In this document: positions 16,601 to 57,885 of the stretch, piece by piece
Numbering within the stretch: position 1 is the first letter of the stretch
Layout: each line of letters begins with the position of its first letter
DNA from: Streptomyces sp. YIM 121038
GTDB lineage: Bacteria > Actinomycetota > Actinomycetes > Streptomycetales > Streptomycetaceae
Assembly: GCF_006088715.1 (NCBI RefSeq)
Contig: NZ_CP030771.1
Location: forward strand, 7,314,001-7,378,000
Direction of reading: 5' to 3'
DNA length: 64,000 nucleotides
Notes under the pieces: generated by a model
Database searches by the model: none
Told to the model about the DNA's origin: nothing
The model's input: the letters and a program-made list of their open reading frames with translations, nothing else
Translations under genes and position numbers: made by a program

Positions 16601-16841
16601 CGTCGAGGTCGAGCTCGGACACGGGCACCACGTACCGGCCGGGAACTCCCTCCGTGTCCTCGGCGCAGAGCGTGCGCAGGCCTTCGTGACGGGTCACGAC
16701 ATCCCTGACGGCGCGCCCCAGCGCGGCCCTTTCCAGCGGCCCGGTCATCCGCAGTACCAGCGGAATGTTGTGCATGGCCGACGGGCCGTGAATTCGGTGA
16801 ATGAGCCACAGTCGGCGCTGCGCGAGCGACAACGGATTCAT
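13689..16841 (-). CDS. Stand-alone NRPS, C*-A-T with degenerate C motif
   Basis: The 1050-residue protein has a condensation domain (1-440), an adenylation domain (about 455-950, with [11 protein letters not shown] and [10 protein letters not shown]) and a carrier domain ([12 protein letters not shown]). The C motif HHxxxDG reads H130-G131-IAA-D135-E136: the catalytic second His is Gly and the final Gly is Glu, so peptide-bond formation is unlikely. Specificity residues read by eye are D-V-F-H-V-A-A-Y-A, identical to module 2 of NRPS-2. It probably acts as an aminoacyl loader. AAGGAG precedes the ATG by nine bases. Operator copy B and a candidate promoter lie upstream. I cannot name the amino acid. 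Confidence 0.85.
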
Positions 16842-35200: not shown

Positions 35201-38200
35201 GACTACCGCGCGCCGCGCAACGAGGTGGAGGAGATCCTCGCCGGGGTCTACTCCGACGTCCTCGGCCTGGAGCGGGTCGGCATCGACGACGACTTCTTCG
35301 CCGTCGGCGGTGACTCCATCCGCTCGATCCAGGTGGTGGCGCGGGCCAGGACCCGGGGCGTGGAGGTCACGCCGCGGCAGATCTTCGAGGCCCGTACGGT
35401 CGCCGAGCTGGCCGAGCTGGCCGCCGACGGTGTCCAGACCGGACCCGTCCTGGAGGAGCTGGCGGGCGGCGGCACCGGCTTCATGCCGCATCTGCCGGTC
35501 GGCCACTGGCTCGACGAACTCGGCGCGGGCGTCGACCGGTTCACCATGTCGATGACCGTCGACCTGCCCGTCGGCATGGACGAGGCCGCCCTGGTCGCGA
35601 CCCTCACGGCGGTCCTCGACCGGCACGACGCGCTGCGCTCGCGCCTGGTCACGGGCGAGCGGCCCGGCCTTGAGGCGTCCGCCCCCGGCACGGTCGACGC
35701 CGCCTCGCTCCTCCACCGGATCGCCTGCGACGGCACCTGGGCGGACGGCTGGCGCGAGCAGGCCGCCGCCGAGCTGGACGCCGCCGCCGACCGCCTGGCC
35801 GCCGAGGCCGGGGTCATGGCGCGGTTCGTGTGGTTCGACGCCGGTACCGAGCGCGCCGGACGCCTGATCCTCGTGCTGCACCACCTCGTCGTCGACGGCG
35901 TGTCCTGGAGCATCCTGCTGCCCGACCTGGCGGCCGCCTGGAAGGACGTCCGCGAGGGCCGCACCCCGGACCTCGCCCCGGTGGGCACCTCCGCCCGCCG
36001 CTGGGCGCACGCCCTGGCCGACGAGGCCGCGTCCGCCGAGCGCGGCGCGGAGCTGGCGCTGTGGCGCTCCATCGTCGCCGGACCCGACCCGGTCCTCGGC
36101 AGCCGCCCCCTCGACCCGGCCGTCGACACCATCGCGACGATCGAGTACGTCCGCAAGGACCTGCCCGTGGCGGCCACGGAGGCGCTCCTGACGAGCCTCC
36201 CCGCGGCCTACCGGGGCGGCGTCAACGACGGTCTGCTCGCCGCGCTCGCGCTGGCGGTGGCCAAGTGGCGCAAGCAGCGCGGCGTCGACGCCGCCGCCGC
36301 GTCCTCGCTCCTCCTGCGCATGGAGGGCCACGGCCGTGAGGAGGCCGCCGCGCCCGGCGCCGACCTCTCCCGGACGGTGGGCTGGTTCACCAGCATGTAC
36401 CCCGTCCGCCTGGACGTCGCGGGCGTCGACCTGGACGAGGCCCTCACCGGCGGCGCCGCCGCGGGCACCGCCGTCAAGGCGGTCAAGGAGCAGCTGCTCG
36501 CCGTCCCGGACAAGGGCATCGGCTACGGCCTCCTGCGCTACCTCAACCCGGAGACCGCCGAGGTCCTCAAGCGCTACTCCACCGGCCAGATCTCCTTCAA
36601 CTACCTGGGCCACTACTCGGGTTCGGCGAACATGCCGGAGAACCTGCGGGGCCTCGGCTTCACCCAGGTCGAGGGCACCACCGAGCTGGTCGCCGAGCTC
36701 GACGCCGCCATGCCCGCCCTCGCCGCGCTCAACGTCACCGCGTACGTCGCCGACGGCGAGCAGGGGCCGCGCCTGGCCGCCCGGCTCGACTACCCCTCCG
36801 GCCTCTTCACGCAGGCCGAGGTGGAGGAGCTCGCCGAGCTGTGGACCACCGCCCTGGAAGGCCTCGCGCAGCACGCCGCGCAGCCGGCCGCGGGCGGCCT
36901 GACCCCCTCCGACGTGCCGCTGGTGACGGTGGCCCAGGGCGACCTGGACGCGTGGGAGGAGAAGTACGCGGGCCTGACCGACGTATGGCCGCTGACCGCG
37001 ATGCAGAGCGGTCTGCTGTTCCACACCGAGCTGGCCGGCGCGTCCTTCGACGCCTACCAGATGCAGTTCGACTTCCACCTCGCCGGTGCCGTCGAGCCGC
37101 AGCGGATGCGCGCCGCCGGACAGGCGCTCCTGGACCGCTACCCCAACCTGCGGGCCGCGTTCACCACCGACAGCGCGGGCGACCGCGTCCAGCTCGTGCA
37201 GAGCCACGTCGAACTGCCCTGGCACGAGGAGGACCTGAGCTCCTTCACGGGCGCGGAGCGCGACGAGCAGCTCAAGCGGTTCCTGGCCACCGAGCACGGC
37301 ACCCGCTTCGACGCGGCCACGGCCCCGCTGGTGCGGATGTCGCTGATCAAGCTGGACGACGACGCGTGGGAGCTGGTCTTCACCGCCCACCACGCCCTGT
37401 TCGACGGCTGGTCGATCCCGCTGCTCATGCAGGACCTGATGCGTCTGTACGGCTCGGCCGGTGACGCCACGGACCTGGGCAAGCCGCGCAACTACCGTGA
37501 CTTCCTGGCCTGGCTCTCCCGCCAGGACAAGGACGCCACCGCCGCCGCCTGGGCCGAGGAGCTCCAGGGCGTGGACGAGCCCACGCTGCTGCTGCCCGTC
37601 GGCTCCGACGAGCAGGGCGAGGCCTCGGGCGCCGGCCAGATCGACGTGCCGCTCACCGCGGAGCAGTCCCGTGCGCTCTCGCGCCGCGCGAGCGAGCTGG
37701 GCGTGACCCTGAACACCGTGGTCCAGGGCGCGTGGGCGATGCTCCTCGCGGGTCTGACCGGGCGTCAGGACGTGGTGTTCGGCGCCACGGTCTCGGGCCG
37801 TCCGCCGCAGGTGGCGGGCGTGGACGAGATGGTCGGCCTGTTCATCAACACCCTTCCGGTGCGGGTGGACTGCGCGCCCGGCGCCTCCCTCGGCAGCGTC
37901 CTGAGCACCCTCCAGGACCGCCAGGGCGCGCTGCTCGACCACCACCACCACGGTCTGCTCGACCTGCACCAGAGCACCGGTCTGCGGGCCCTGTTCGACA
38001 CCATGGTGGTCTTCGAGTCGTACCCGATCGACAGCGCCGCGCTCAGCGAGGCGTACTCGGCCGCCGGGATCTCGGTGACCGGGATCAGCCCGCTCAGCGG
38101 CACCCACTACCCGCTGACGGTCATCGCGGTGGCCGAGCCGCACCTGAAGGTGAGCCTCCAGCACCAGCACCACCTGCTCGACCAGGAGCGTGCGCAGGAC

Positions 38201-41200
38201 ATCGCGGTGCGTCTGGGCCGCGTCCTGGCGCAGCTCGCCGAGGACCCGCGGGCCCCCTTCGGCTCGATCGACCTCCTCGAGCCCACCGAGCGCGAGCGGC
38301 TGCACGCCGTCAACGACACGGCCGCCGAGACGCCCGAGCTGACCATCCCCGGTCTCTTCGAGCGGCAGGTCGCGCAGGTCCCGCAGAAGACCGCGGTGAC
38401 CTTCGACGGCGTGGCGTACACCTACGCCGAGCTGGACGCCCGCGCGACCCGGCTCGCCCAGGAGCTCGCCGGGCGCGGGGTGGGCCCGGAGACCGTGGTG
38501 GGCCTCGCCCTGCCGCGCTCCGCCGACCTGGTCACCGGCATGCTCGGCATCCTCAAGGCGGGCGGCGCCTATCTGCCGATCGACCCGAAGTACCCGAGCT
38601 CGCGCCTGGACCACATCCTGTCCACCGCGCGTCCGCAGCTGGTCCTCACCGACGCCGACACCGTCGGGGTGCTGCCCGAGACGGACGTCCCGTCGCTGTT
38701 CCTGGGCGACCTGGACCTCGAAGGACCCGCCGACGGCGCCCGGTTGGCGGCCGCGCGGCCGCACAACGCCGCGTACGTGATGTACACCTCCGGCTCCACC
38801 GGCACCCCCAAGGGCGTGGTGATCAGCCACGCGAACGTGGTCAACGGCGTGCTGCGGCTCGCCGAGCGGGTCGGCGTCGGCGCGGACACGCAGATGTTCG
38901 CCAACTCCTCGGTGAACTTCGACGTCTCGGTCTTCGAGGTCGTCACCACCCTCGCCAAGGGCGGCACCATCGAGGTGGTCCGCGACGCCCTGGTCCTGGC
39001 CGAGCGCCAGGAGGTGACGGCCAGCGTGATCCACACCGTGCCGTCCGTCTTCGCCGAGCTGGGCGACCGGCTGCCCGCCATGCCCGGCCTGGAGACCGTC
39101 GTCTTCGCCGGTGAGGCGCTGCCCGCCACCCTCGTGCACCGCATCCGCGAGACGCTGCCCGACGTGCGGGTCGTCAACGCCTACGGCCAGACCGAGTCCT
39201 TCTACGCCACCACCTTCGCCCTGGAGGCGGGCACCGCGTGGCAGGCCGCCGACAACACCCCCGTCGGCACTCCGCTGGGCAACATGCGCACCTACGTCCT
39301 CGGCGCGGGCCTCGCGCCGCTGCCGCCGGGCGTGGTGGGCGAGCTGTACGTCGCCGGGAACATCGCCCGTGGCTACTACGGCCAGGCCGAGCTGACCGCC
39401 GAGCGCTTCGTCGCCGACCCCTACGGCCCGGCCGGGTCGCGCATGTACCGCACCGGCGACCTCGGCCGCTGGAACGCCGACGGGCAGATCGAGTACGTCG
39501 GCCGCGAGGACGACCAGATCAAGATCCGCGGCGTGCGCGTCGAGCCCGCCGAGATCGAGGCCGCCCTGGCCACGCACCCGGCCGTCGGCCAGGCCGTCGT
39601 GGTCCCGCACGAGGGCGCGGGCGACAAGCAGCTCATCGCCTACGTGGTCCCCGACCTGGACGGCACCGAGTACATCGAGGAGTCCGCCAAGCAGGTCGAC
39701 GAGTGGGAGCAGATCTACGACGAGGTCTACTCCGCCACCGGCACCGAGTGGGGCGAGGACTTCACCGGCTGGAACTCCAGCTACACCGGCGAGGAGATCC
39801 CGCTCGACGAGATGCGCGACTGGCGCGACGCGGCGGTGGCGCAGATCCTGCGCCAGGGACCGCGCCGCATCCTCGAACTGGGCGTCGGCTCCGGTCTGCT
39901 GATGGGCCACCTCCTCAACGACGACAACATCGAGGAGTACTGGGCCACCGACCTGTCCTCGCAGGTCATCGGCCGACTCGCCGAAGAGGTCGAGCAGGCC
40001 GGGTTCGCCGACAAGGTCACCCTGCGCCACCAGACCGCCGACGACACCACCGGTCTGCCCCGCGGTCACTTCGACACCGTCGTCCTGAACTCGGTGATCC
40101 AGTACTTCCCGCACGCCGCCTACCTGGACGACGTCCTCGCCAAGGCCCTGGACCTGCTCGCCCCCGGCGGTCGGATCGTGGTCGGTGACGTCCGCAACGC
40201 GGGCACGCTGCACCTGATGCGCACCGGCGTGCAGCGGACCCAGTACCCGAACGAGGCGCCGGCGGCGGCCCACGCGGCCATCGCCCGCTCGATCCTCACC
40301 GAGCCCGAACTGGTCCTGGACCCCGAGTGGTTCCACCAGTTCGGCGAGAAGCACGGCGCGGCCGCGGTGGACATCCGCCTCAAGCCGGGCCAGGCCCACA
40401 ACGAGCTGACCCGGCACCGCTACGAGATCTTCGTGCACAAGGACCCGGTCGACTTCCTCGACGTCAGCGACGCGCCCGCCGTGGACTGGGGCCGTCAGGT
40501 CGGCGAGCTCTCCGCCCTGGAGGAGCTGGTCCGCGCCCAGGACGGTCCGGCGCTGCGCGTCACCGGGATCCTCAACGCCCGGATGATCGAGGAGGCCGAC
40601 TGGGCCGCCGAGGTCAAGATCGTCGACGCGCCCCCCGCGGCCGAGTCCGCCGTCGACCCGGAGGCCCTGCACGCGTGGGCCGCCGCGCACGGCTGGAGCG
40701 TCCTCATGACCTGGTCGTCGGCGGCGGGCGAGAGCTTCGACGCCGTCGTCCTGACCGACCCCGACGCCGTCGAGCGGCCGGTGCGGGGCGCCTTCGTCCC
40801 GTCGCGCCGCGCCGACCTGTACCTGTCCAGCGACCCGGCCGCGGCCACCCAGATCGGTGTCCTGGTCGGCTCCCTGCGCGGCTACCTCCAGGAGCGGCTG
40901 CCCGCCCACATGGTGCCCGCCTCCGTGGTCGCCATCGCCTCCGTGCCGCTGGCCGCCAACGGCAAGCTGGACCGCAGGGCCCTGCCCGCGCCCGACCTGT
41001 CGGCGCAGTCCGGCGGCCGGGCCCCGCGCACCCTCCAGGAAGAGCTGCTCTGCGACCTGTTCGCCGAGGTCCTCGACCTGGAGCGGGTCAGCGTCGACGA
41101 CAACTTCTTCGACCTGGGCGGCCACTCGCTGCTCGCCACCAAGCTCATCAGCCGCATCCGCGCCACCCTCGGCGCCGAGGTCGAGCTGCGCACCTTCTTC

Positions 41201-44200
41201 TCCCACCCGACGGTGGCGGGGATCGTGCCGCACCTGGACGGCAGCGTCCGCACCCAGGCACCCCTGGTCCGCGTGGCCGAGCGGCCCGAGCACCTGCCGC
41301 TCTCCTTCGCCCAGCAGCGCCTGTGGTTCGTCGACCAGTTCGAGGGCCCGTCGGCGACGTACAACATGCCGATCGTGCTCCGGCTGAGCGGTGAGCTCGA
41401 CGTCCCGGCCCTGGAGACGGCCCTCAACGACCTCGTGGCCCGCCACGAGACGCTGCGCACGGTCTTCCCCGCGGTCAACGGCAGGCCCGAGCAGCGGATC
41501 CACTCCGTCGAGGACGCGCCGGTCACCCTGGCCGTGCGCGACGTCGACGGCGAGGACGAGCTGGCCACGGCCCTCACCGAGGCCGCCCGGTACGCCTTCG
41601 CCCTGGAGAGCGAACTGCCGCTGCGCGCCCAGCTGTTCCGCAGCGGTCCGCAGGAGAACGTGCTGTCCCTGGTGGTCCACCACATCGCGGCCGACGGCTG
41701 GTCCTACGCCCCGCTGGCCCTGGACCTGGCCGCCGCCTACACGGCACGCGTGGGCGGCGCCGCACCCCAGTGGACCGAACTGCCGGTGCAGTACGCCGAC
41801 TACACCCTGTGGCAGCACGAGCTGCTCGGCGACGAGAGCGACCCCGACAGCCTCTTCAACAAGCAGTACGCCTACTGGGCCGAGCAGCTCGCCGGGCTGC
41901 CGGAGAAGGTCACCATCCCGACCGACCGGCCCCGCCCCGCCGTGCTCAAGGGCACCGGCGACCTGCTCCGCTTCACCCTGGACGCCGAGCTGCACCAGGG
42001 CATCGCGGAGCTCGCCAAGGCCACCGGCACGACGCCCTTCATGGTGCTGCAGACCACCATGGCGGCCCTGCTGACCCGCCTGGGCGCGGGCACCGACATC
42101 TCGGTGGGCAGTGGCATCGCGGGCCGGACCGACGAGAACCTGAAGGACCTGGTCGGCCTGTTCGTCAACCTGCTGGTGCTGCGCACGGACACCTCGGGCG
42201 ACCCGACCTTCGCCGAGCTCCTGGCACAGGTGCGCAAGACCAGCCTGTCCGCCTACTCCCACCAGGACATCCCCTTCGAGTCCCTGGTGGAGAAGCTCAA
42301 CCCGGAGCGCTCGCCCTCCGTCCACCCGCTGTTCCAGATCGCCCTGGCGCTCCAGAACAACGAGGCGGCCCAGTTCGAGCTGCCCGGCCTGCGCGTGCAG
42401 GCCGACGGCTCCGGCACCGGCACCGCCCGCTACGACCTGCTCCTGAGCCTCGACGAGACCTTCGAGGACCGGACCAGGCCCGCGGGCATCTCGATCGCCG
42501 CCGAGTACTCCGACGAGCTGTTCGACGCCGCCACCATCGAGACGCTGATCACCCGCTGGAAGCGGCTGCTCACCACCGCGGTCACCAACCCCTCGCACCG
42601 CATCAGCTACGCCGACCTGCTCACCCCCGAGGAGCGCAGCCAGCTGCTCGCGGCCGAGCGGGAGCAGCCGGAGCGGGTCGCCGCGCCCGCGACCTTCCCC
42701 GAGCTGTTCGCGGCCCGGGTGCAGGCGGCCCCGGACGCCCCGGCCGTGGAGTCGGCCGACGTCACGTGGTCGTACGCGGAGCTCGACGCGCGGGCCAACC
42801 GCGTCGCGCACTGGCTCGCCGCGCGCGGCATCGGTCTGGAGCAGCAGGTGGCCGTGGCCATGCCGCGCTCCGCGGACCAGGTCGCCGTCGCCCTGGGCAT
42901 CCTGAAGGCGGGCGCCGCCTACATGCCCGTCGACCTGGACTACCCGGCCGACCGCATCACGTACATGGTCGACGACGCCGCCCCCGCCGCCCTCCTGGTG
43001 ACGCGGGCCGCGATCGAGGACCTGCCGGAGGGCCTGGCCACCGAGGTCGTGGCCGTCGACACGGACGACGTGCAGGCCGCCTGGCGGACGAGCCCGGACA
43101 CCGCGCCGGACACCGGTCTGACCCTGCACCACCCGGCGTACGTCATCTACACGTCGGGTTCGACGGGCCGGCCCAAGGGCGTCACCGTGACCCACGCGGG
43201 CATCGCCTCGCTCAGCCACTCCACCCAGGAGCGGCTCGGCCTCACCCCGGACGCGCGCGTCCTGCAGGTCGCGGCGCCGAGCTTCGACGCCGCCTTCTGG
43301 GAGCTGGTGCAGTCCCTGACCACCGGTGCGGCCCTGATCGTCCCGGCCGAGCGGCGCCTGGTCGGCGACGACCTGGTGCGCACCCTCGCCGAGCGCCGCG
43401 TCACGCACGTGATGCTGCCGCCCAGCGTGCTCGCCGCGCTGCCCGCCGACACCCCGCGCACCCTGACCGACCTGCGCACGGTGACCGTCGGTGGCGAGGC
43501 GTGCCCGCCGGGCCTGGCCTCCGCCTGGTCGCCGGGGCGTCGCTTCGTCAACGCCTACGGCCCCACCGAGACCACCGTCTGCGGCTCCATCTCCACCCCG
43601 CTGACCAGCGACCACACCCCGATCGGCACCGCCGTGGCCGACAACCGGGTGCGGGTGCTCGACGAGCAGCTCGCCCCGGTGCCCCCGGGCACGCCCGGTG
43701 AGCTGTACGTGGCGGGCCCGAGCCTGGCCCGCGGCTACCTCGGCCGCTCCGCGCTGACCGCCGAGCGCTTCGTCACCGACCCCTACGGACCCGCGGGCTC
43801 GCGGATGTACCGCACGGGCGACGTGGTGCGCCAGGGCGCCGACGGACAGCTGGAGTACCTGGGCCGCAGCGACGACCAGGTCAAGCTCCGCGGTCTGCGC
43901 ATCGAGCCGGGCGAGATCGAGGCGGCGCTCGCCGAGCACCACAACGTGGCCCAGGCCGTCGTCCTCGTCCGCGAGGTGCGCGGCAGCAAGCAGCTCGTCG
44001 GCTACGTCGTCCCGGCCGGTGCCCGCGAGATGAAGGCGGAGCACTTCGACATCACCGCGGGCGTCTCCGCCAAGGAGCTGCGGCGCTTCGCCGCGGGCCG
44101 CCTGCCCGAGTTCATGGTGCCCTCGTCCTTCGTCCTCCTGGACGAGCTGCCGCTGACGCCGAACGGCAAGCTGGACAAGGCCGCGCTGCCCGAGCCCGAG

Positions 44201-47200
44201 GTGCCCGGCGGCGCCTACCAGGCGCCCCGCACGCCCGAGGAGCAGGCCCTGGCCGCCGCGTACGCGGAGGTCCTCGGCCTGGAGCGGGTCGGCATCGACG
44301 ACGACTTCTTCGCCGTCGGCGGTGACTCCATCCGCTCCATCCAGGTCGTCTCCAAGGCCCGCGTCCACGGCATCGAGATCACGCCGCGCCAGGTCTTCGA
44401 GTGCCGTACGGTGGCCGCCCTCGCGGTGGCCGCCGCGACCGGCGGTCCTGCCGTGCCGGTCCGCGAGGAGATGGCGGGCGGCGGCGTCGGCTGGATGCCG
44501 CTGCTCCCGATCGCCCGCTACATCACCGAACTGGGCGGCGGTTACGACCGGTTCGTGATGTCCATGGCGGTGAACCTGCCGCGGGGCATCGACGAGAGCG
44601 GCCTGGTCGCCACCCTGGCCGCGGTCGTCGACCACCACGACGTGCTCCGCGCCCGTCTGGTCACCGCGGACGAGGCGGGCCTGGAGGCGGCCGAGCCGGG
44701 CACCGTCGACGTCGCGTCCCTGGTGCGCCGCGTCCCCTCCGCGGGGGACTGGCAGGACGCCGCCTGGCGCGACGAGGCGAAGGCCGCGCTCGACGCCGCC
44801 GTACGGGAGCTGGACCCGGCGTCCGGCGACGTGGCCCGGTTCGTGTGGTTCGACGCCGGACCGCAGACCGCGGGCCGACTGATCATCGTGCTGCACCACC
44901 TGGTGGTCGACGGCGTGTCCTGGCGGATCCTCGTCCCGGACCTCGCCGAGGCCTGGGAGCAGGTCCGCGAGGGCCGCACGCCCGACCTGGCCCCGGTGCC
45001 CACCTCGATGCGCCACTGGGCCCACGCCCTCACGGAGGAGGCCGCGTCGCCCGGCCGCACGGCCGAACTGGCCCTGTGGCAGAGCGTCGTGGAGGGCCCG
45101 GACCCGCTCATCGGCTCCCGGCCGCTCGACCCGGCGGTGGACGTCCGCGCCACCATGGAGTCCGTGGAGGTGCGCCTCGCGTCCGAGGCCACCGAGGCGC
45201 TCCTGACCGCGCTGCCCGCCGCCTTCCACGGCGGTCCCAACGACGGTCTCCTGACCGCCCTCGCCCTGGCCCTGACGCAGTGGCGCAAGAACCGCGGCGT
45301 GGACGAGTCCTCGCTGCTCCTGCGCCTGGAGGGCCACGGCCGTGAGGAGGCGGCGGCGCCCGGCGTCGACCTGTCGCGCACGGTCGGCTGGTTCACCACG
45401 ATGTTCCCGGTGCGCCTGAGCGTCGAGGGCTTCGACGTCGACGAGGCCGTCGCGGGCGGCCGCTCCGCGGGCCACGCCATCAAGGCCGTCAAGGAGCAGC
45501 TCAACGCCATCCCGGACAAGGGCATCGGCTACGGCCTGCTGCGCTACCTCAACCCGGAGACCGCCGAGGTCCTCCGGGCGAGCCACGCCGGTCAGGTCAC
45601 CTTCAACTACCTGGGCCGGTTCGCCGACGGCGACCAGCCGGGCGGCGGCGGTGGCTGGGCCATCGCCGGGGACATGGAGGGCATCGCCGCCGAGCTGGAC
45701 GCGGACATGCCCGCCCTGGCCACGGTGGAGGTCAACTCCTACGTCGTGGACTCCGCGCAGGGCCCGCAGTTCAGCGCCTCCCTCAGCTTCCCCGCCGGGC
45801 TGCTCGCCCGCGAGGACGCGCAGGAGCTCGCCGACCTGTGGCACACCGCCCTCGAAGGCCTGGCCCGGCACGCCCGCACCCCGGGCGCGGGCGGCCTGAC
45901 GCCCTCGGACGTCTCGCTGGTGAAGGTGCGCCAGCGCGACCTGGAGGCGTGGGAGGAGCTGTACCCCGGCCTCCAGGACGTATGGCCGATGACGGACGCG
46001 CAGTCCGGTCTGCTCTTCCAGAGCCAGCTGGCCGACACCTCCTTCGACGCCTACCACGTGCAGTTCGCGATGCACCTGGCCGGCGGGGTCGACCCGGAGC
46101 GGATGCGCGCGGCCGGGCAGACCCTGCTCGACCGGTACGCCAACTTCCGTACGGCGTACGTGTCCAGCGCCTCCGGTCAGCAGGTCCAGCTGGTCCTCGA
46201 CCACGTCGAGCTGCCCTGGCAGGTCGTGGACCTGCGGGACCTCGGCGAGAAGGCGCAGGAGGAGGCCTTCGAGAAGCTGCTCGCCGAGGACCAGACGGCG
46301 CACTTCGACCCGGCGGCGCCGCCGATGCTGCGCATGACCCTGGTGCTGCGGAGCGACGACCTCTCGGAGCTGGTGTTCACCGTCAACCACGTGCTGTTCG
46401 ACGGCTGGTCCTTCCCGCTCATGCTCCAGGACCTCATCCGCGCCTACGCGGCGGACGGGGACACCTCGTCGCTGCCGCGGGTGCGGCCCTACCGCGACTT
46501 CCTGGCCTGGCTCGGCAAGCAGGACCAGGAGGAGGCCTACCGGGCCTGGGCGCGGGAGCTCGACGGGGTCGAGGAGCCGACGCTGCTCGCCCCGGCGGCC
46601 GCCACCACGGCGGTCCCCGAGGGCCAGGACGCGACGGAGCACGTCGACCTGCCGCTGCCCGCCGGGATGGCGCAGGAGCTCCAGCGCCGCGCCGGTGAGC
46701 TGGGCATCACGCTCAACATGCTGCTCCAGGGCGCCTGGGGCGTGGTCCTCGGCCATCTGACCGGACGCCAGGACGTGGTCTTCGGTACGACGGTCTCCGG
46801 CCGTCCGCCGCAGGTCCCGGGCATCGACGAGATGGTGGGTCTGTTCATCAACGCCCTGCCGGTGCGCGTGCAGTTCACGCCGCGGGACACCCTCGCGGAC
46901 CTGCTCACCGGGCTGCGCGAGCGCCAGGCGGTCCTGATGGACCACCAGAACCTCGGTCTGACCGAGATCCACGACGCCGCCGGTGTCGGCACCCTGTTCG
47001 ACAGCATGATCATCTTCGAGTCGTTCCCGATCGACCGCGAAGGCATGAGCGAGGCGCACGGCGAGGCCGGCGTCGAGATCACCGGGATGCGCATCCACAG
47101 CAGCACCCACTACCCGATCACCCTGGGTGCCGACCCGGAGCTGACCATGGCGGTCGTGGAGTACCGCAAGGACCTCTTCGAGCGCCGTGAGATCGAGCGG

Positions 47201-49804
47201 ATCGCCGCGCTCGTCGGCCGGGTCCTGGAGCAGCTCGCCGCGGACCCGCACACCCCGCTGTCCCGCCTCGACCTCGTGGACGAGGCCGAACAGGACCTGG
47301 TGCTGCGGCAGTTCAACGACACGGCCGCCGAGGTGCCCGCGAAGACGGCCATCCGTCTGGTCGAGGAGCAGGTCGCCCGCACACCGGAGGCCGTCGCGGT
47401 CGTCCACGAGGGCGAGCGGGTCACGTACGAGGAGCTGAACGCGCGGGCCAACCGGCTCGCCAGGCACCTCACCGCGCGGGGCATCGGCCCGGACACCCAG
47501 GTGGCCGTGGTCCTGCCGCGCACGCCGGAGCTGGTGGTGGCGATCCTCGCGACCCTCAAGTCCGGTGCCGCCTACGTCCCGATCGACCCCGGCTACCCGG
47601 GCACGCGTCTGCAGCACATCCTCGACACGGCGGGCCCGCGTCTGATCATCACCGACACCACGGTGGCGGACGTCCTGCCCGCGGGGGTGGACACCGAGCT
47701 GCTGCTGCTCGACGATGCGGACGTGTCGGCGTACTCCGCCGCGGACCTGGCCGACAGCGAGCGCACCGGCGTGCTGCTGCCGGACCACCTGCTGTACCAG
47801 ATCTACACCTCCGGCTCGACGGGCCTGCCCAAGGGCGTGGGCCTGACCCACGCCAACCTGGTCAACGCCCTGCACGGCATGGCGGGCGAGGTCGGTCTCG
47901 GGTCGGGCCTGCGGATGCTGGCGAGCACCTCGATCGGCTTCGACGTGGCCAGCTTCGAGCTGTTCTTCACGCTCACCAACGGCGGCAGCGTCGAACTGGT
48001 CCGTGACGTCCTGGCCCTGGCCGAGCGCGACAGCTGGGACCTGGACGTGGTCAGCTCGGTGCCCTCGGCCTTCGCCGAGCTCGTCGACCAGCTGGGCGAG
48101 CGGGTGCGGCCCAAGGCGCTGCTGTTCGGCGGCGAGGCCCTCACCCCGGCCCTGGTGGGCCGCATCCGGGCCCAGTGGCCGGACGTGCGGATCGTCAACT
48201 GCTACGGGCCGAGTGAGGCGTTCTACGTCACCTCGCACGTCCTGGACAGCGAGGCTCCGTACGCCGCGGGGGTGCCCATCGGGCGCCCGCTGAACAACCT
48301 GCGCGGCTATGTCCTTACGCCGTCCCTGACCCCGGTCGCCCAGGGCGCCGTCGGCGAGCTGTACCTCGCCGGCGCGGGTGTGGGCCGCGGCTACCACGGG
48401 CGCACGGCGCAGACCGCCGAGCGCTATCTGGCCGACCCGTTCGGCGCCGCGGGCGGGCGCATGTACCGCACCGGTGACCTCGCCCGCTGGACCGCGGACG
48501 GGCACCTGGAGTACCTCGGCCGTGCCGACTCCCAGGTCAAGATCCGTGGCTTCCGCATCGAGCCCGGCGAGGTCGAGGCGGCGGTGGCGGCCCACCCGCA
48601 GGTCGCCCAGGCCGCGGTGGTGGCACGCGCCACGGCGGGCAGCAAGCAGCTGGTCGCCTACGCGGTGCCCGAGGACGGCGCGGAGCTCGAAGCGGCGCAG
48701 CTGCGCTCCTTCGTCGCCGAGCGGCTGCCCGAGTACATGGTGCCCGCGGCGTTCGTCACCCTGGAGCGGCTGCCGCTCTCGCCCAACGGCAAGCTCGACC
48801 ACCGGGCGCTCCCGGCGCCCGACCTGAGCGGCACGGCGGCCTACCGCGCGCCGCGCACGCCTCAGGAAGAGGTCCTGGCGAGCCTGTTCGCCCAGGTCCT
48901 CGGGGTGGAGAAGGTCGGCATCGACGACAACTTCTTCGACCTCGGCGGCCACTCGCTGCGGGCCACGCGTCTGGTCAGCCGGATCGCGGCGGTCCTCATG
49001 GTCGAGGTGCCGATGCGGACGGTCTTCCAGGCGCCCACGGTCGCGCAGCTGGCCGAGAGCCTCTCGGCGGGCGGCGAGGGAACCGGGTCCGAGAACACCG
49101 ACCCGTACGGCGTCGTCCTCCCGCTGAGGAGCGGTGGAAGCGGCACCCCCGTGTGGTTCATCCACCCCGGTTTCGGCCTCTCCTGGTCGTACCTGGGCAT
49201 GGCCATGCAGCTCGGGGACCGGCCGGTGTACGGCATCCAGGCCCGCGGCTTCGACGGTTCGCCGATCCCGGAGAGCTTCGAGGCGATGGTTCTGGACTAC
49301 GTGGAGCAGATCCTGGCCGTGCAGGAGGAGGGGCCGTACCACTTCGTCGGCCACTCCATGGGCGGCACCCTGTCCCACGCCGTCGCCGCCGAGCTCCAGA
49401 GCCGCGGTCACGAGGTGCCCTTCGTGGCGCTGCTCGACGCCGCGCCGACGAGCGCCTTCGTCTCCGAGGACGTGGTGCTGGACCGGTCGGTGGGCCGTGA
49501 CTTCCTCGCGGGCTATCTGCCGGGCGAGGACGAGGACGCCGAGCGCCAGACCCTCGTCGAGAACGGCGCGCAGATCATGTCCGAGCACGTGCGCCTGGCG
49601 AAGGAGTTCACCCAGCCCGTCTACCGCGGCACGGCGCTGTTCTTCAACGCGACCCTGAGCCCGGAGGCCCAGGCCTCCTTCTGGGACGCGTACGTCGACG
49701 GGGACGTCCGCGTGAGCGACGTCCACGCCACCCACTTCGGCCTGACCGCACCCAAGGTCGCGGCCGAGATCTGCACCGTCATCAACCGCCACCTCGCGGA
49801 CTGA
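32294..49804 (+). CDS. NRPS-2, four modules with thioesterase: C-A-T-E-C-A-MT-T-C-A-T-E-C-A-T-TE
   Basis: A 5836-residue megasynthetase. Module 1: C (HHAAADG at 130-136), A (residues D-V-F-S-V-G-P-Y-A), T (GGDS), E (HHLVVDG). Module 2: C (HHALFDG), A (D-V-F-H-V-A-A-Y-A), a methyltransferase between the A8 and A10 regions (about 2460-2850; [10 protein letters not shown]), T. Module 3: C (HHIAADG), A (D-A-W-M-T-G-A-V-C), T, E (HHLVVDG). Module 4: C (NHVLFDG, second His intact), A (D-V-F-S-L-G-C-Y-V), T, TE with GHSMGG. Residues 1 and 3 should be D and residue 2 N-methylated; the TE releases or cyclises the chain. Modules 1, 2 and 4 share an unusual A-domain type ([33 protein letters not shown]) that I cannot assign. 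Codes were extracted by eye. Confidence 0.95.
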
Positions 49805-52162: not shown

Positions 52163-52312
52163 ATGGACATCGAGATGAGCACCGAGGTGGAGAGCGACCT
52201 CGGCGAGCTAGAGGTACTCGAGATGGATGAACTGCACGTCAGTGGTTCGTCCACGGCCTACAACTACATCGCCAGGAACGCCGACCGCTCGTCGGACACA
52301 GCGGCGGGCTGA
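52163..52312 (+). CDS. Candidate RiPP precursor peptide for the radical SAM enzymes
   Basis: A 49-residue open frame sits just before two radical SAM genes. The first ~25 residues form a strongly acidic leader (12 Asp/Glu; LGELEVLEMDELHV) and the rest is a polar core-like segment (SGSSTAYNYIARNADRS, then DTAAG) rich in Ser, Ala, Asn and Tyr. There is no Cys and no signal peptide. Acidic leaders with LE-rich stretches are common in RiPP precursors recognised in the cytoplasm. GGAGG lies only four bases before the ATG, a short spacing; the next Met (codon 5) has no better site. A hairpin follows 24 bases after the stop. Proposed role: substrate of the downstream enzymes. The leader/core border is unknown. 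Confidence 0.65.
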   Translation: MDIEMSTEVESDLGELEVLEMDELHVSGSSTAYNYIARNADRSSDTAAG

Positions 52313-52336
52313 CCGGCCCGGCCGCATCGTTCCGTG

Positions 52337-52367
52337 AGGAGCCCACACCACCTGTTCGTGGGCTCCT
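52337..52367 (+). terminator. Attenuator-like hairpin between precursor and enzymes
   Basis: AGGAGCCCAC (52337-52346) and GTGGGCTCCT (52358-52367) form a perfect 10-bp stem with an 11-base loop, followed by a T-rich stretch. RiPP operons often carry such a partial terminator so that precursor message exceeds enzyme message. This supports the short upstream frame as a real gene. Confidence 0.6.
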
Positions 52368-52471
52368 TCGGTTCTCCCTTCGCGATCGTCGAGGGTCGTA
52401 CGAGCCCTTCCCGGGCGGGAGCGCCCTCGTGTATCCGGTCGGCCGCATCCGCCCGGAAGAGGACGGATGGC

Positions 52472-54397
52472 ATGGATCTCCTGCTGCTCTTTCCGCCGCT
52501 CACGGAGGCGACGCTCTTTCCCTATCTGAGCCTGCCGTATCTCGCCGGTCACGTCCGCCGGTCCGGCCGCTCCGCGCATCAGGTCGACCTGAGCATCGCA
52601 TTGGTCCACCGGCTCCTCGACGGACCGGCGCTCGCCCGGGAGGCCCGTGCCCTGGACACGGCGCGGGAGCTGCCGTCCTGGTACCGGGCGGTGGTGGCCG
52701 ATGCCGCCCTGCGGCATCTGGGCGAGGTCCGCGACTTCGTCCTGACGAAGGCTCCGGCGCCCCGCCTCGGCCCCGTGCGCGCGGTGCGACTGGCCCGCCA
52801 GGCCGCCCAACTGATGCTGCGGGACTCGGCGTTGGCGTGCGTGTGGGACGACTTCGAATCGCTCGACCGGGCGGTGCTGCGCCTGTCGGAATCCCCGGCC
52901 GGCTCCCTCGACTTCGCGACCCGGAGCCTGCGCGGTCTGCTGGGAGAGGCCCTGGACGAGGCCGCGCCGCGGGCGGTCGGCATCTCGGTCGCCTTCTTCA
53001 GCCAGGTGGCGCCGGCTCTGCTCGTCGCCCGGTGGATCCGGAAGCTCCGCCCGGGCACACCCGTCTGCCTCGGCGGACAGCAGGTCATGCTGCGCCACGA
53101 CGAACTGGCCGCCATGGCCTCCGTACGGACGGCGGTGGACGCGCTCTGCGTCACCGCGGGCGAAGAGCCCTTGGAGCGCTGGCTCGCCCATCTCGCAGGA
53201 GAGGCGCCGCGCGACGACGTGCCGGGGATGAGGTGGCTGAGCCCCGAAGGCGCGACCGCCCCCGGCAGGCCGCCCACGCTGCGCTTCAAGGACGTCGGCG
53301 CGCCCGACTACGGCGGCCTGGAGGTGCGTTCCTACCTCAACGACACCGTCGTCCTGTCCATGGTGTCCTGCGTGGGCTGCTTCTGGGGGCGCTGCGTCTT
53401 CTGCTCCTACGGCAACCGCTCCCTCGAACGCGGCGGCTACCAGCAGGCCTCGCCCAGGCAACTCGCGGACACCGTACGGCAGATCGTGGAGAGCACCGGG
53501 ATCGACTTCGTCACCGTCGTCGACGAGAACACCAATCTGCTCCTGCTCGCCCGGGCCATGCGGCTGGTGCGCGAGAGCGGGCTGCGCGTCCGGTTCAACA
53601 CGCGCAACCGCCTGGAGCCGGTCCTGCTCGACCCGGCCTTCTGCCAGGAGCTGGCCGAACTCGGCTGCGAGGGCATGGCCGTCGGCTACGAGGGCGTCAC
53701 GCAGCGGCTGCTCGACCGGCTGGACAAGGGCGTCCGCGCCGCGGACTTCCAGGTCATCCTCGACAACCTCGCGGCGGCGGACATCCGGGTCAACCTCTCC
53801 GTCATGGGCGGCCTGCTGGACGAGACCGAGGAGGAGGCCGAGGAGTCGCTCCGCTTCCTGGAGCGCAACCGCGAGAAGTTCGCCGTGGACGCCTTCGAAC
53901 TCATGGTGGTCGAGCCGGGGACCCGGCTCCTTGCCGAGCCGGGGAGCTTCGGTGTGGCCCTCGACGGCTCCGCCGCGTTCGCCGACAACCGCGAACTCAA
54001 CTACCTGGGCGGCAGGGTGGGCAGGCGGCACACCGTCGTGGGCGGCCCCGGGCGCCCCGCCATGCTCAGGCGGCTCCAGCACGGCATGCGCCGGATCTCC
54101 GCGGCGGGAGCCGGACCCGCCGAAGCCCCGGCGCGGCCGGCGGCGCTGCGCCCGCACCCATGGATCCGGTGCGCTCCGCCGGGACTCGCCCCGCGCGGCG
54201 GCTCCTTCCTGCTGGCCGATCCCGTACGGGACCAGGTGTACGCGCTGCCGAAGGACCACGTGGCCCGAAGTGCCGCGCCGGGCGGGCTCCTGGCCGCGAC
54301 CAGCGCGCGGGGCCGCTCCCTGCTCGGCAAGCTCGCCGCCGCGGACGCCGGTGTCCTGTGCGACGAACCGCCACCGGCCCCGCGCCCGTCCCGCTGA
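52472..54397 (+). CDS. B12-binding-type radical SAM protein (RiPP maturation, enzyme 1)
   Basis: The 641-residue protein has an N-terminal cobalamin-binding-like domain (about 1-230; PYLSLPYLAGHVRRSG, then VGISVAFFSQVAPALL and CLGGQQ) and a radical SAM domain. The cluster motif is Cys303-FWGR-Cys307-VF-Cys310, with Cys300 just before it. YEGVTQRLLDRLDKG and FNTRNRLEP are later barrel features. B12 radical SAM enzymes commonly C-methylate unactivated carbons and some catalyse rearrangements. The ATG at 52472 is chosen for the domain start and the upstream AGAGGA. It ends 12 bases before the second radical SAM gene, whose AAGGAG begins at the last base of its stop codon. Confidence 0.8.
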   Translation: MDLLLLFPPLTEATLFPYLSLPYLAGHVRRSGRSAHQVDLSIALVHRLLDGPALAREARALDTARELPSWYRAVVADAALRHLGEVRDFVLTKAPAPRLGPVRAVRLARQAAQLMLRDSALACVWDDFESLDRAVLRLSESPAGSLDFATRSLRGLLGEALDEAAPRAVGISVAFFSQVAPALLVARWIRKLRPGTPVCLGGQQVMLRHDELAAMASVRTAVDALCVTAGEEPLERWLAHLAGEAPRDDVPGMRWLSPEGATAPGRPPTLRFKDVGAPDYGGLEVRSYLNDTVVLSMVSCVGCFWGRCVFCSYGNRSLERGGYQQASPRQLADTVRQIVESTGIDFVTVVDENTNLLLLARAMRLVRESGLRVRFNTRNRLEPVLLDPAFCQELAELGCEGMAVGYEGVTQRLLDRLDKGVRAADFQVILDNLAAADIRVNLSVMGGLLDETEEEAEESLRFLERNREKFAVDAFELMVVEPGTRLLAEPGSFGVALDGSAAFADNRELNYLGGRVGRRHTVVGGPGRPAMLRRLQHGMRRISAAGAGPAEAPARPAALRPHPWIRCAPPGLAPRGGSFLLADPVRDQVYALPKDHVARSAAPGGLLAATSARGRSLLGKLAAADAGVLCDEPPPAPRPSR

Positions 54398-54409
54398 AGG
54401 AGTCACACG

Positions 54410-56950
54410 GTGCACATCACCCTGGTCAACATGCCCTGGGCCTCGATCGACTTCCCTTCCCTGGCCCTGGGAATCCTCAAGCGACGCGTCACGGACGCGT
54501 TCCCGGACAGCCGCGTCGACGTCGTGCACGCCAATCTGGACTACCTCGACTGGATCACCGAGCGGGCCGGTCTGACGCGGGACGAGTACACCTTCTGCTG
54601 GGACTCCTACTTCACCGGGTACAGCGAGTGGATCTTCTCCTCCGCGCTGTACGACGATCCGCGGTGGCGCAACGACGAGTTCGCGGACCTCGTGGCGGGC
54701 GTGGTGCCGGGGGACATGCTCGCCAAGGGGCGCCACCTGCACGCGCTCGCCCCCGAGTACGTCGACTCCCTCGTCGGCCGCATCCTCGCCGACCGGCCCG
54801 ACGTCGTCGGCTTCTCCACGACGTTCGCGCAGAACAGCGCCGTCCTCGCCGCGGCCAGGCTCATCAAGAAGGCCGCGCCCGAGGTGCGCGTGGTGCTCGG
54901 CGGCGGGAACTGCGACGGCCCGCAGGGTGCCGCGCTCCACCGCGGCTTCCCGTTCGTCGACTACGTCAACCGCGGTGAGGGCGAGGTGTCCTTCACGCGG
55001 CTCCTCACCTGCCTCCGCGACGCGTCGAGCCCCGCGGACATCCCCGGGCTGTGCTGGCGCGACGCGGACGGCACCGCCCACGCCAACGCCATGAGCGCGG
55101 CCCCGCTGCCGGCGTCGGCACTGGTCACACCGGACTACACGGACTACTTCGAGCAGCACGCGGCCTCCCGCGCCGGAGCCATGGCCGAACCCCACCTGGT
55201 GGTGGAGAGCTCACGCGGCTGCTGGTGGGGGCAGAAGCACCACTGCACCTTCTGCGGGCTCAACGGATCGTTCATGGAGTTCCGCAGCAAGAGCCCGGAC
55301 CGCTTCGTCGACGAACTCCTGGCGATGACGGAGCGCTACCGCGTGCTCAACGTCGCCGTGGCGGACAACATCCTCGACATGGCCTATCTGAGGTCGGTGG
55401 TCCCGAGGCTCGCGGAGGCCGAGTGCGACCTGCGCGTCAGTTACGAGATCAAGTCCAACATGCGCCGCGAGCAGCTCGCCTCCCTCGTCGCCGCCGGAAT
55501 CCACTACGTGCAGCCCGGCATCGAGAGCCTCAGCGGCCGGGTCCTGAAGCTGATGGACAAGGGCGTCACCGGCTGCCAGAACGTCCGCATGCTGCGGGAC
55601 GCGGAGTCGGTGAGCCTCGGCGTCGTATGGAACTACCTCTTCGGCTTCCCGGACGAGACGGAGGAGGACTACGAGTCGGTGATCGACCAGTTCCCTTCCC
55701 TCCACCACCTCGCTCCGCCGAACGGCGTGACCCGCATAGCCATCGAACGCTTCAGCCCCTACTTCAACCGCCCGGAACTGGGATTCGGCGACCTGCGGCC
55801 CGCCGCCCACTACGCGGTGATCTACGACCTGCCCGAAGCCGAACTCCGCGACATGGCCTATGTCTTCGACGCGGCGCACCGGGGGATCTCCGCCACACAG
55901 GCGGAGCGCCTGGAGAAGGCCATCGAGACCTGGCGCCACGAGTTCCCCCGAGGGCGCCTCACGCAGTGCGACCTCACCGACTCCGTCGTCCTGACCAACA
56001 CCCGGCCCGGCTTCGCCTGGAGGACCCTGCGGATCGAGGAGCCCTGGGAGACGGCCGCGTTCCGGCTCCTGGACCAGCCGTGCACCGACGACGTCCTGCT
56101 GAAGAAGCTCCGGGCGGGCGGTCACGACGTCGACGCGGAGGACGTGGCGGACCTGCTGTCCCGCTGGCGCACGAGGGGCCTGCTCTTCGAGGACGGCGGC
56201 CAGACCGTGCACGTCGTACCGTACGCCGCCAACCAGGACCTCATGCGCTGGGTGACCCACGGCGGCCCGGCGCTGGTGCCCGCACTGCGCCACGGCCCGG
56301 CGGACCGGAGCCCGGAGGCGGCCGCGACGACGGCGCTGCGGTGCTGGCGCGAACGCGACGAGGAGACCCGCGCGCGGGACGGCATCTTCATGGGGGAGGA
56401 GCCGTACGAGGACACCGCCGTGCGCTCCGTGGCGGAGCTGGTCGCGCGGGGCACCCGGCACGTCGCCCTTCCCGAGCCCGTGGTCCTCGGCCGCGGCGGG
56501 AGCGGAGGCGACCGGCGGGCGGTCCGCGGGCTCACCCACGTACGGGAGTTGACGGGACGAGGCCTCTCCGTCGACTGGGACCTGGACCTCGGCGGCGAGA
56601 TCGGAGCATGGCGGCTGTTCAGCCATCTGTATCCGCCGCGTTCGGTGGCCGGTCCCGACGGCGACGCCGTCCTCGAGCAGTGGCGCACCACGTTCCACAT
56701 GAACAAGTGCGGCTACCGGCGTGGCGTGGGCTTCGTCGAAGTCACCGACCTGCGCCACGGAGCACAGCGGCGCGTCCTCATGCGCAAGGTGAACAAGGAG
56801 AAGCTGGCGGCACTCCTGGACGGTGCCCCTGCCTCGGACTTCCGGCCGCGGGAGACCGAGGCGTTCCTGACGTCGGGTCTCGTGCACCGGGTCGGCTCCC
56901 TGCTGTGGTGGCTGCCCTCCCGCATCACCCGCTGGCCGGTCGTGGGGTGA
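54410..56950 (+). CDS. RiPP maturation radical SAM C-methyltransferase-like protein with C-terminal extension (enzyme 2)
   Basis: The 846-residue protein starts with a B12-binding-like domain (VNMPWASIDFPSLALGIL; VGFSTTFAQNSAVLAAA; VLGGGNCDG) and a radical SAM domain with Cys271-WWGQKHH-Cys279-TF-Cys282 and GLNGS. The CWWG...CxFCGLNG signature matches, in my memory, the family annotated as RiPP maturation radical SAM protein 1. The C-terminal part after about residue 600 holds a separate domain (VRGLTHVRELTGRGLSVDWD; FHMNKCGYRRG) resembling DUF5825, usually a separate neighbour gene, so this may be a fusion. GTG start with AAGGAG seven bases upstream. Predicted role: radical C-methylation or another carbon-centred change of the precursor. 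Confidence 0.8.
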   Translation: MHITLVNMPWASIDFPSLALGILKRRVTDAFPDSRVDVVHANLDYLDWITERAGLTRDEYTFCWDSYFTGYSEWIFSSALYDDPRWRNDEFADLVAGVVPGDMLAKGRHLHALAPEYVDSLVGRILADRPDVVGFSTTFAQNSAVLAAARLIKKAAPEVRVVLGGGNCDGPQGAALHRGFPFVDYVNRGEGEVSFTRLLTCLRDASSPADIPGLCWRDADGTAHANAMSAAPLPASALVTPDYTDYFEQHAASRAGAMAEPHLVVESSRGCWWGQKHHCTFCGLNGSFMEFRSKSPDRFVDELLAMTERYRVLNVAVADNILDMAYLRSVVPRLAEAECDLRVSYEIKSNMRREQLASLVAAGIHYVQPGIESLSGRVLKLMDKGVTGCQNVRMLRDAESVSLGVVWNYLFGFPDETEEDYESVIDQFPSLHHLAPPNGVTRIAIERFSPYFNRPELGFGDLRPAAHYAVIYDLPEAELRDMAYVFDAAHRGISATQAERLEKAIETWRHEFPRGRLTQCDLTDSVVLTNTRPGFAWRTLRIEEPWETAAFRLLDQPCTDDVLLKKLRAGGHDVDAEDVADLLSRWRTRGLLFEDGGQTVHVVPYAANQDLMRWVTHGGPALVPALRHGPADRSPEAAATTALRCWRERDEETRARDGIFMGEEPYEDTAVRSVAELVARGTRHVALPEPVVLGRGGSGGDRRAVRGLTHVRELTGRGLSVDWDLDLGGEIGAWRLFSHLYPPRSVAGPDGDAVLEQWRTTFHMNKCGYRRGVGFVEVTDLRHGAQRRVLMRKVNKEKLAALLDGAPASDFRPRETEAFLTSGLVHRVGSLLWWLPSRITRWPVVG

Positions 56951-57044
56951 CGCCGTGGGACGACGCCGTGGGACGACATCGTGGGGTGAGGAAGGGAAGC
57001 GACGGCCGCGCACCGGACCACCGTACGGAGAGGAACCGAGGACC

Positions 57045-57683
57045 ATGCACCCTGACGGGGCCCTGCCGCCGCGCTCCCTCAACGCGGCCGAATGGGACCA
57101 CACGTACGAGACCGTGGCCGCCCGCTGGGACGAGGAGCCGCCGCCCGTGCTCGGCGACCTCCTCGCCGAGCACGCTCCGCCCCCGGCCCGCGTCCTGGAC
57201 GTCGGCTGCGGGCTCGGCACCACCGCGCGCTGGCTCGCCGCCCGCGGCTACGCCGTGACGGCTTGCGACTTCTCGGCCCGGGCGATCGAGGAGGCCCGCC
57301 GCCGCACGCCCGAAGGGTCGCCGGTGCGGTACGAGGTCCGTGACGTGACCGGCCCCGGGCCGGTGGACCCGTTCCCGGTGGTCCTCGACCGTGGTGTGCT
57401 GCACACCTGCCCCACCGGCCACGAGCGGCGCACGTTCGCCGCGGCGATGGCCCGGACGTGCGGGCCCGGCGGCCTGTGGGTCCACGTCGGGGCCGCCGCG
57501 CTCAGCGAGGAGGACGCCCTGGACCAGTCCGGTGGACCGTCCTGGACCACCGAGGAGACCTTCCGCTCCGCGGTGGCCCCGTGGTTCACCGTGCTGGACC
57601 TCCGGATCGCCGACTTCGGCCGGCAGCCGGGCGTGACGGACTGGCCCGCGCGGTACGCCGTGCTCCGGAGGGGCCAGGGCTGA
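57045..57683 (+). CDS. Class I SAM-dependent methyltransferase
   Basis: The 212-residue protein has motif I VLDVGCGLGTTARWLA and the acidic motif II TACDFS, as in small-molecule and peptide methyltransferases. The ATG at 57045 is used because GGAGAGGA lies upstream and the domain begins there. It is 94 bases after the radical SAM pair and on the same strand, so it may add an O- or N-methyl group (for instance at a terminus) to the product. It could instead be unrelated. Confidence 0.75.
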   Translation: MHPDGALPPRSLNAAEWDHTYETVAARWDEEPPPVLGDLLAEHAPPPARVLDVGCGLGTTARWLAARGYAVTACDFSARAIEEARRRTPEGSPVRYEVRDVTGPGPVDPFPVVLDRGVLHTCPTGHERRTFAAAMARTCGPGGLWVHVGAAALSEEDALDQSGGPSWTTEETFRSAVAPWFTVLDLRIADFGRQPGVTDWPARYAVLRRGQG

Positions 57684-57705: not shown

Positions 57706-57885
57706 CCCGGCCCCTGCCGCACGCCGGAGCCTCTGCCGCACGCCGGAGCCGTGGGGCCCTGCCGCACACCGGAGCCTCTGCCGCACGCCGGAGCCGTGGG
57801 GCCCTGCCGCACACCGGAGCCTCTGCCGCACGCCGGAGCCGTGGGGCCCTGCCGCACACCGGAGCCTCTGCCGCACGCCGGAGCC
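57706..57885. repeat. 45-bp tandem repeat, about four copies
   Basis: GTGGGGCCCT recurs at 57751, 57796 and 57841 at exact 45-bp spacing, with a diverged first copy before it. Each unit itself contains two ~21-bp halves (CTGCCGCACRCCGGAGCC). The period is a multiple of three, so all frames stay open through it. It fills the space between the convergent methyltransferase and HTH-TOBE genes and ends just past the latter's stop. Confidence 0.85.

Follow-up and report, generated by a model that had tools for sequence, protein, structure and literature searches.

A Streptomyces RiPP operon related to stg-type biphenomycin-like clusters, with a probable B12 radical SAM crosslinker and a fused radical SAM-DUF5825 enzyme

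The closest described relatives of the operon presented here are found among the biphenomycin-like gene clusters. Stg-type clusters, whose precursors carry a YHxYxY motif, have been described as biphenomycin-like (PMC12257519), and the stg cluster of Streptomyces turgidiscabies ATCC 700248 (PMC12026744) is given there with the motif YHTYTY. Peribacillus simplex is the source of the pbs cluster, and its enzyme PbsB/BipD reportedly links a pair of aromatic side chains; PbsB joins both Tyr rings of YTY (PMC12257519). The same study leaves open why this crosslinking enzyme needs cobalamin, and it relates that a homologous pair, composed of a B12-dependent radical S-adenosylmethionine (SAM) enzyme and a DUF5825 protein, C-methylates the clavusporins. 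This study concerns a four-gene operon of Streptomyces sp. YIM 121038, located in a stretch of 64,000 nucleotides (contig NZ_CP030771.1, positions 7,314,001 to 7,378,000) that is called the window hereafter and whose numbering is used throughout. Its predicted product is a ribosomally synthesized and post-translationally modified peptide (RiPP).

On the basis of open reading frames (ORFs) and domain profiles, the operon occupies positions 52163-57683 of the forward strand. It comprises a gene for a precursor peptide of 49 residues (52163..52312), two genes for B12-type radical SAM enzymes, named here rSAM1 (52472..54397, 641 residues) and rSAM2 (54410..56950, 846 residues, with a DUF5825 tail), and a gene for a class I SAM-dependent methyltransferase (57045..57683, 212 residues). 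All the genes and domains listed by the first-pass annotation of this sequence are present, and the peptide has no Cys. The same four genes were found in the same order in S. silaceus, S. atriruber and S. xylophagus (loci L009, L010 and L011) by scanning with rSAM2. We regard it as almost certain that these genes form a RiPP operon akin to the stg type. We further propose, with a probability of about 0.55, that the operon branched off from the stg-type (YHxYxY) members of the biphenomycin-like family, that it lacks the multinuclear non-heme iron-dependent oxidative enzyme (MNIO), and that it would produce a peptide bearing a Tyr-Tyr crosslink and C-methylation.

The kinship with the stg type is best appreciated by comparing gene neighborhoods. 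In three Streptomyces genomes (G011, G092 and G115, loci L091-L093), the gene preceding the rSAM1 homologue encodes a peptide with AAYHTYTYIAAE. The first B12 radical SAM enzyme of these loci is 53-55% identical to rSAM1, as is a homologue from S. turgidiscabies (P0043, 53%). It is followed by an MNIO gene (PF05114 in L091, with copies 93-94% identical in L092 and L093), and further downstream by a gene in the position of the MNIO partner (no Pfam match), an rSAM2 homologue (61%) and a separate DUF5825 gene (39-41%). The order precursor, B12 radical SAM enzyme, MNIO and partner is that of pbs A-B-C-D. The system had been put forward initially as putatively new; the idea of a wholly new class had to be abandoned, as rSAM1, rSAM2 and DUF5825 have evident homologues among the genes of these MNIO-containing loci, and the precursors resemble each other in where they stand, in their leader pattern and in a YxYIA core. 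The stg-type loci also contain, in all three cases, a full-length LanB gene beside the precursor (L091:5042-8110, reverse strand; PF04738 and PF14028 in L091 and L093, and an 87% identical gene in L092) and, at the opposite end, a Stf0 sulfotransferase gene (L091:14940-15803). Neither LanB nor Stf0 had a match in the window or in L009-L011, and the window methyltransferase had none in L091-L093.

The precursor peptide, MDIEMSTEVESDLGELEVLEMDELHVSGSSTAYNYIARNADRSSDTAAG, is devoid of Cys and contains 12 acidic residues. The count of 12 acids, attributed previously to the leader, holds for the whole peptide; the first 26 residues include 10 of them and no Lys or Arg. The leader would extend approximately over residues 1-29, the border being a guess, and the core would lie around T31-N39, including Y33-N34-Y35. 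The possibility that this short frame is a chance ORF was rejected, since the peptide is kept before rSAM1 in the relatives (80% identity in L009, 84% in L010 and 65% in L011), has homologues in the databases and displays a low ratio of nonsynonymous to synonymous differences per site (pN/pS). This ratio is well below 1 (about 0.16-0.34 in six pairs, with pS of 0.22-0.62 and pN of 0.03-0.18), and the peptide is under purifying selection. A protein database search using the four-sequence alignment as query retrieved 12 homologues, including the window's own, of which 11 have 49 residues and one has 50; all the named ones belong to Streptomyces, and eight of the 12 appear to be encoded on the same contig as an rSAM1 homologue, to judge from equal lengths of the longest contig (for example 500713, 760445, 119178, 558372 and 162812). 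When 13 window-type and two stg-type precursors are aligned, all 15 sequences have Y33 and A37, and 14 have Y35; position 34 is N or S in the window type and T in the stg type. The core reads AYNYIA, AYSYVA and similar, without any FHAFRF, FHTFMF or YHxYxY motif; the YHx half of the stg motif is missing from all 13 window-type sequences and just its Y-x-Y part is present. Aligned on the stg type, the window precursor matches LGELEVLEMDEL...YNYIA with FGELEELQVIDSSEL...YTYIA. The pattern that would have refuted the first-pass annotation, namely related pairs consistently lacking such a peptide, was not observed: the peptide precedes rSAM1 in the window, in L009-L011 and in G105, and in G011, G092 and G115 this place is taken by a YHTYTY peptide.

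The rSAM1 protein, a probable Tyr-x-Tyr crosslinker judging from its sequence relationships, combines a B12-binding-like N-terminal domain with a radical SAM barrel (PF04055, 52.4 bits, scored on a longer frame). It is 87%, 84% and 69% identical to its counterparts in L009, L010 and L011, and 67-68% identical homologues occur in Micromonospora and Actinoplanes. Of the 120 listed rSAM1 proteins, 119 carry a CX2CX4CX2C signature, the exception, P0112, lacking the first Cys; so do 39 of 41 further family members and 7 of 7 listed Bacillota-named ones. P0140 and P0142 of P. simplex also belong to this family, and the latter shares 36% identity with rSAM1 across a stretch of 544 residues. A large tree, built from 117 of the 120 listed proteins (three shorter than 560 residues were left out) and six loci, places the window type in a clade of 30 rows with a Shimodaira-Hasegawa-like approximate likelihood ratio test (SH-aLRT) support of 100, close to a clade of 52 rows in which the three MNIO loci and P0043 fall; gene neighborhoods were read for four rows of the former (the window and L009-L011) and three of the latter. 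In a smaller tree of 45 chosen proteins, the window, three loci and three outgroup sequences, the window and stg types join with an SH-aLRT of 97, inside a family that also contains the P. simplex enzymes. By family and by the four-Cys signature, which the enzymes of the stg type and of P. simplex also have, rSAM1 is assigned to the PbsB type. The predicted model (predicted local distance difference test, pLDDT, of 90.6; 77 of the 120 listed proteins in the structure alignment) has OxsB, AprD4, MgmA and TsrM as its nearest solved folds, the first two of which are not known to methylate. A sequence search of solved structures with rSAM1 returned none at E <= 0.01.

The second enzyme, a probable peptide C-methyltransferase by homology, matches TIGR03975 over residues 3-601 with 610.8 bits, above the cut-off of 281.85, and has a CX7CX2C signature. 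Its C-terminal part, at residues 672-844, matches DUF5825 (PF19142) with 166.5 bits for a cut-off of 25. DUF5825 and rSAM2 are fused into one gene in the window and in L009-L011, and have separate genes in the stg-type loci. Among 79 rSAM2 loci, only L009-L011 have a frame reaching 845-856 residues when counted from the matched start, whereas 75 end at 495-697; the remaining locus, L073, runs off the contig end. The structure alignment comprised the window together with 38 locus sequences, of which one is a separate DUF5825, and the DUF5825 part of the model has a pLDDT below 60, too low for reading. Residues 517-601 may form a winged-helix-like region. In Actinacidiphila paucisporea, an rSAM2 homologue (55%) is followed by a separate DUF5825 gene (L012:6001-8722); there is no precursor match at this locus, where rSAM1 matches the rSAM2 region only, and it is perhaps a methylation-only relative.

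These elements can be assembled into a putative pathway, in which C-methylation accompanies aromatic crosslinking; the first-pass annotation had named methylation or crosslinking as possible, and the two together are a sensible guess. The enzymes would bind the acidic leader (DLGELEVLEMDEL), perhaps via the winged-helix-like region of rSAM2. Like PbsB, rSAM1 would generate a 5'-deoxyadenosyl radical, take a hydrogen from a tyrosine and form a carbon-carbon bond between Tyr33 and Tyr35 (-2 Da), creating a three-residue biaryl ring. An MNIO converting Phe to ortho-Tyr would not be needed, because Tyr is proposed to supply the phenol directly from the gene. The rSAM2-DUF5825 protein would then place one methyl group or several (each +14 Da) on unactivated carbon close to the ring, with Ile36 or Ala37 as first guesses. 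Finally, the leader would be removed by a protease encoded elsewhere, and the class I methyltransferase would methylate the freed end or a side chain.

A number of observations weigh against this scheme. The PF02310 (B12-binding) match of rSAM1 reaches 19.7 bits on the longer frame, under the cut-off of 32.1. MgmA and TsrM, which are also among the nearest folds, are methylases, and the alignment with the P. simplex protein does not extend to the final ~100 residues of rSAM1. The stem of the window-type clade is long, 0.58-0.59 changes per column, so that the chemistry of rSAM1 may have shifted; moreover, its link to PbsB is one of species name and family, not of a matched accession. The window-type and stg-type precursors are just 28-30% identical, and the window precursor used as query found no stg-type locus at E <= 0.01 and no G011 sequence at E <= 1e-4; because of this weak similarity, their kinship is argued from position and shared motif. 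One database homologue, P0132 of S. monomycini, has AYNH in place of AYNY; it may be a truncated copy, its C-terminal residues resembling the rSAM1 start in another frame, or it may have a Tyr-x-His core. No certain RiPP recognition element was found, and those flanking ORFs that were scanned with Pfam, a part of the total, showed neither a protease nor an exporter.

Considering these points, it might be asked if both radical SAM enzymes are simply C-methyltransferases, the product being a multiply methylated, clavusporin-like linear peptide free of any crosslink. This is unlikely in our opinion, even if the B12 radical SAM enzymes of RiPP pathways are mostly described as methyltransferases (PMC12707348), DUF5825 marks the clavusporin pair, and rSAM1 gives weak matches to the methyltransferase models TIGR04479 (61.9 bits) and TIGR03975 (61.1) and to ApyD (42.2), all far under their cut-offs. 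The grouping of rSAM1 with the enzymes of the stg type and of P. simplex, their common four-Cys signature and the persistence of Y33 and Y35 in the aligned precursors argue instead for a crosslink. The nature of this link can be questioned as well: the strict conservation of A37, the YNH of P0132 and the long stem, from which the regiochemistry may have changed, would suit a bond from Tyr to the side chain of Asn/Ser34 or Ala37, or a C-O ether, in place of a Tyr-Tyr biaryl. With position 34 variable, and PbsB joining the two Tyr rings of YTY, we rate such a link as slightly more doubtful still.

The absence of an MNIO deserves a separate examination. With the MNIO and partner of L091 as queries, no match was obtained in L009, L010, L011 or L012, and the window gave a single 39-residue MNIO match with an E value of 0.33. 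A split biphenomycin-like cluster, calling on an MNIO from elsewhere in the genome, could be imagined because one MNIO-family gene was found there (G000:C1:7181019-7181813, reverse strand, 266 bits). This gene is however about 185 kb from the operon, the stg-type MNIO had no match at its locus (L100) at E <= 1, and none of the 13 aligned window-type precursors has the YHx half of the stg motif, all of which makes this arrangement very improbable. These comparisons are most simply read as a loss of the MNIO by the window type, since the three sister-clade loci and, according to the literature, the P. simplex clusters possess one.

Concerning the organization of the operon, two gene starts were revised by comparison with relatives. 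The start of rSAM1 is most likely the ATG at 52472, not that at 52334, because the relatives open with an identical MDLLLLFPP. For the methyltransferase (PF13649/PF08241, scored on the longer frame; 84%, 78% and 75% identical to its counterparts in L009, L010 and L011), the ATG at 57045 is most likely preferable to that at 56955, because homology opens at residue 38-40 of the longer frame. Between the precursor stop and rSAM1, an RNA hairpin is predicted on the same strand (52336..52368), with arms pairing over 10-12 bases in all four species. Two of its pairs are altered on both sides across species (A-T to G-C and C-G to T-A), and its loop measures 9 nt in the window, 122 nt in L009, 49 nt in L010 and 30 nt in L011. 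The first ~88 nt form an unusually stable fold in the window (z -3.1) and in L011 (z -2.6); the value is z -0.2 for L009 and L010 alike, whose fragments end before or inside the second arm. A scan for consensus promoters and terminators detected none of either, and no terminator at the hairpin, a stem that could favor the production of more peptide than enzyme. Directly after the methyltransferase gene, a GC-rich unit of 45 bases is repeated in tandem (57712-57885, 3.9 copies, 99% matches).

Among 150 Streptomyces genomes, the precursor was found in the own genome and in G105 only. A search of 101 Streptomyces genomes with rSAM1 (up to 12 first-look candidates scored per genome) gave the same two at 84-100% and G011, G092 and G115 at 55%, and in a class sample of 138 genomes (up to 9 candidates) the own genome was the only match. 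Plasmid records had no match to the precursor (E <= 1e-5) or to rSAM1 (E <= 1e-30). As for the surroundings, the earlier statement that lanthipeptide, YcaO and lasso genes are lacking is valid for the operon and the flanking ORFs scanned, which contain no LanB, LanM, LanKC, YcaO or lasso cyclase domain; it does not extend to the whole window, where a lanthionine-synthetase-like gene (RamC_N, kinase, LANC_like) lies at 54-2576 on the forward strand, 50 kb from the operon. Arginase, hydroxylase and TldD-type protease were likewise not seen among the scanned ORFs, a part of those flanking the operon, and a FHAFRF DNA pattern had three matches in the 150 Streptomyces genomes, none a plausible precursor. 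An apparent nonribosomal peptide synthetase region (13689-51148) precedes the operon, with a condensation-adenylation-thiolation protein (13689-16841), a thioesterase, two PhyH dioxygenases, an ORF of 5836 residues (32294-49804) judged by its first residues only, and a cytochrome P450 just before the operon. This P450 (49919-51148) was considered as crosslinker and rejected, having no match in L009-L011.

If the proposed scheme is correct, the operon may also, more tentatively, be the first natural example of a route in which a single B12 radical SAM enzyme, unaided by an MNIO or a P450, links both unmodified tyrosines of a YxY core into a biaryl ring, which a fused B12 radical SAM-DUF5825 protein then C-methylates; it would have arisen when a biphenomycin-like ancestor whose core already bore both phenols lost its MNIO. 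In the literature searched, outside of which lie the supplements and the clavusporin paper, no MNIO-free member and no radical SAM-DUF5825 fusion is described, and DUF5825 is named only in PMC12026744 and PMC12257519. An enzyme of the same family seemingly acting on an unhydroxylated Tyr-x-Tyr would deal with a simpler substrate and provide a naturally occurring case for testing if hydroxylation can be omitted. The operon also offers a compact system for co-expression, and a single polypeptide combining radical SAM and DUF5825 would ease the study of the DUF5825 partner.

Compared with known systems, the operon shares with the stg type homologous first and second B12 radical SAM enzymes, DUF5825, a similar leader pattern and a YxYIA core; it differs by the fusion of DUF5825, by an additional class I methyltransferase and by the fact that no MNIO, partner, LanB or Stf0 was found. 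With the biphenomycins (pbs, bip and bpm; PMC12257519, PMC12707348), it has in common a B12 radical SAM enzyme of the PbsB/BipD type by family and an aromatic-x-aromatic core, but with Tyr for Phe, YNY or YSY for FHAFRF, and no MNIO found. The clavusporins, as related in PMC12257519, similarly associate a B12 radical SAM enzyme with DUF5825. The two are present here as one polypeptide, in which DUF5825 is a domain, and a second, different B12 radical SAM enzyme is added. Finally, a short biaryl ring is predicted as in aminopyruvatide, which uses a YLY motif (PMC13192836), and a class I methyltransferase is present as in the myxarylin cluster. In aminopyruvatide and the biarylitides (PMC12951456) the biaryl link is made by a P450, whereas the predicted crosslinker of the present operon is a B12 radical SAM enzyme.

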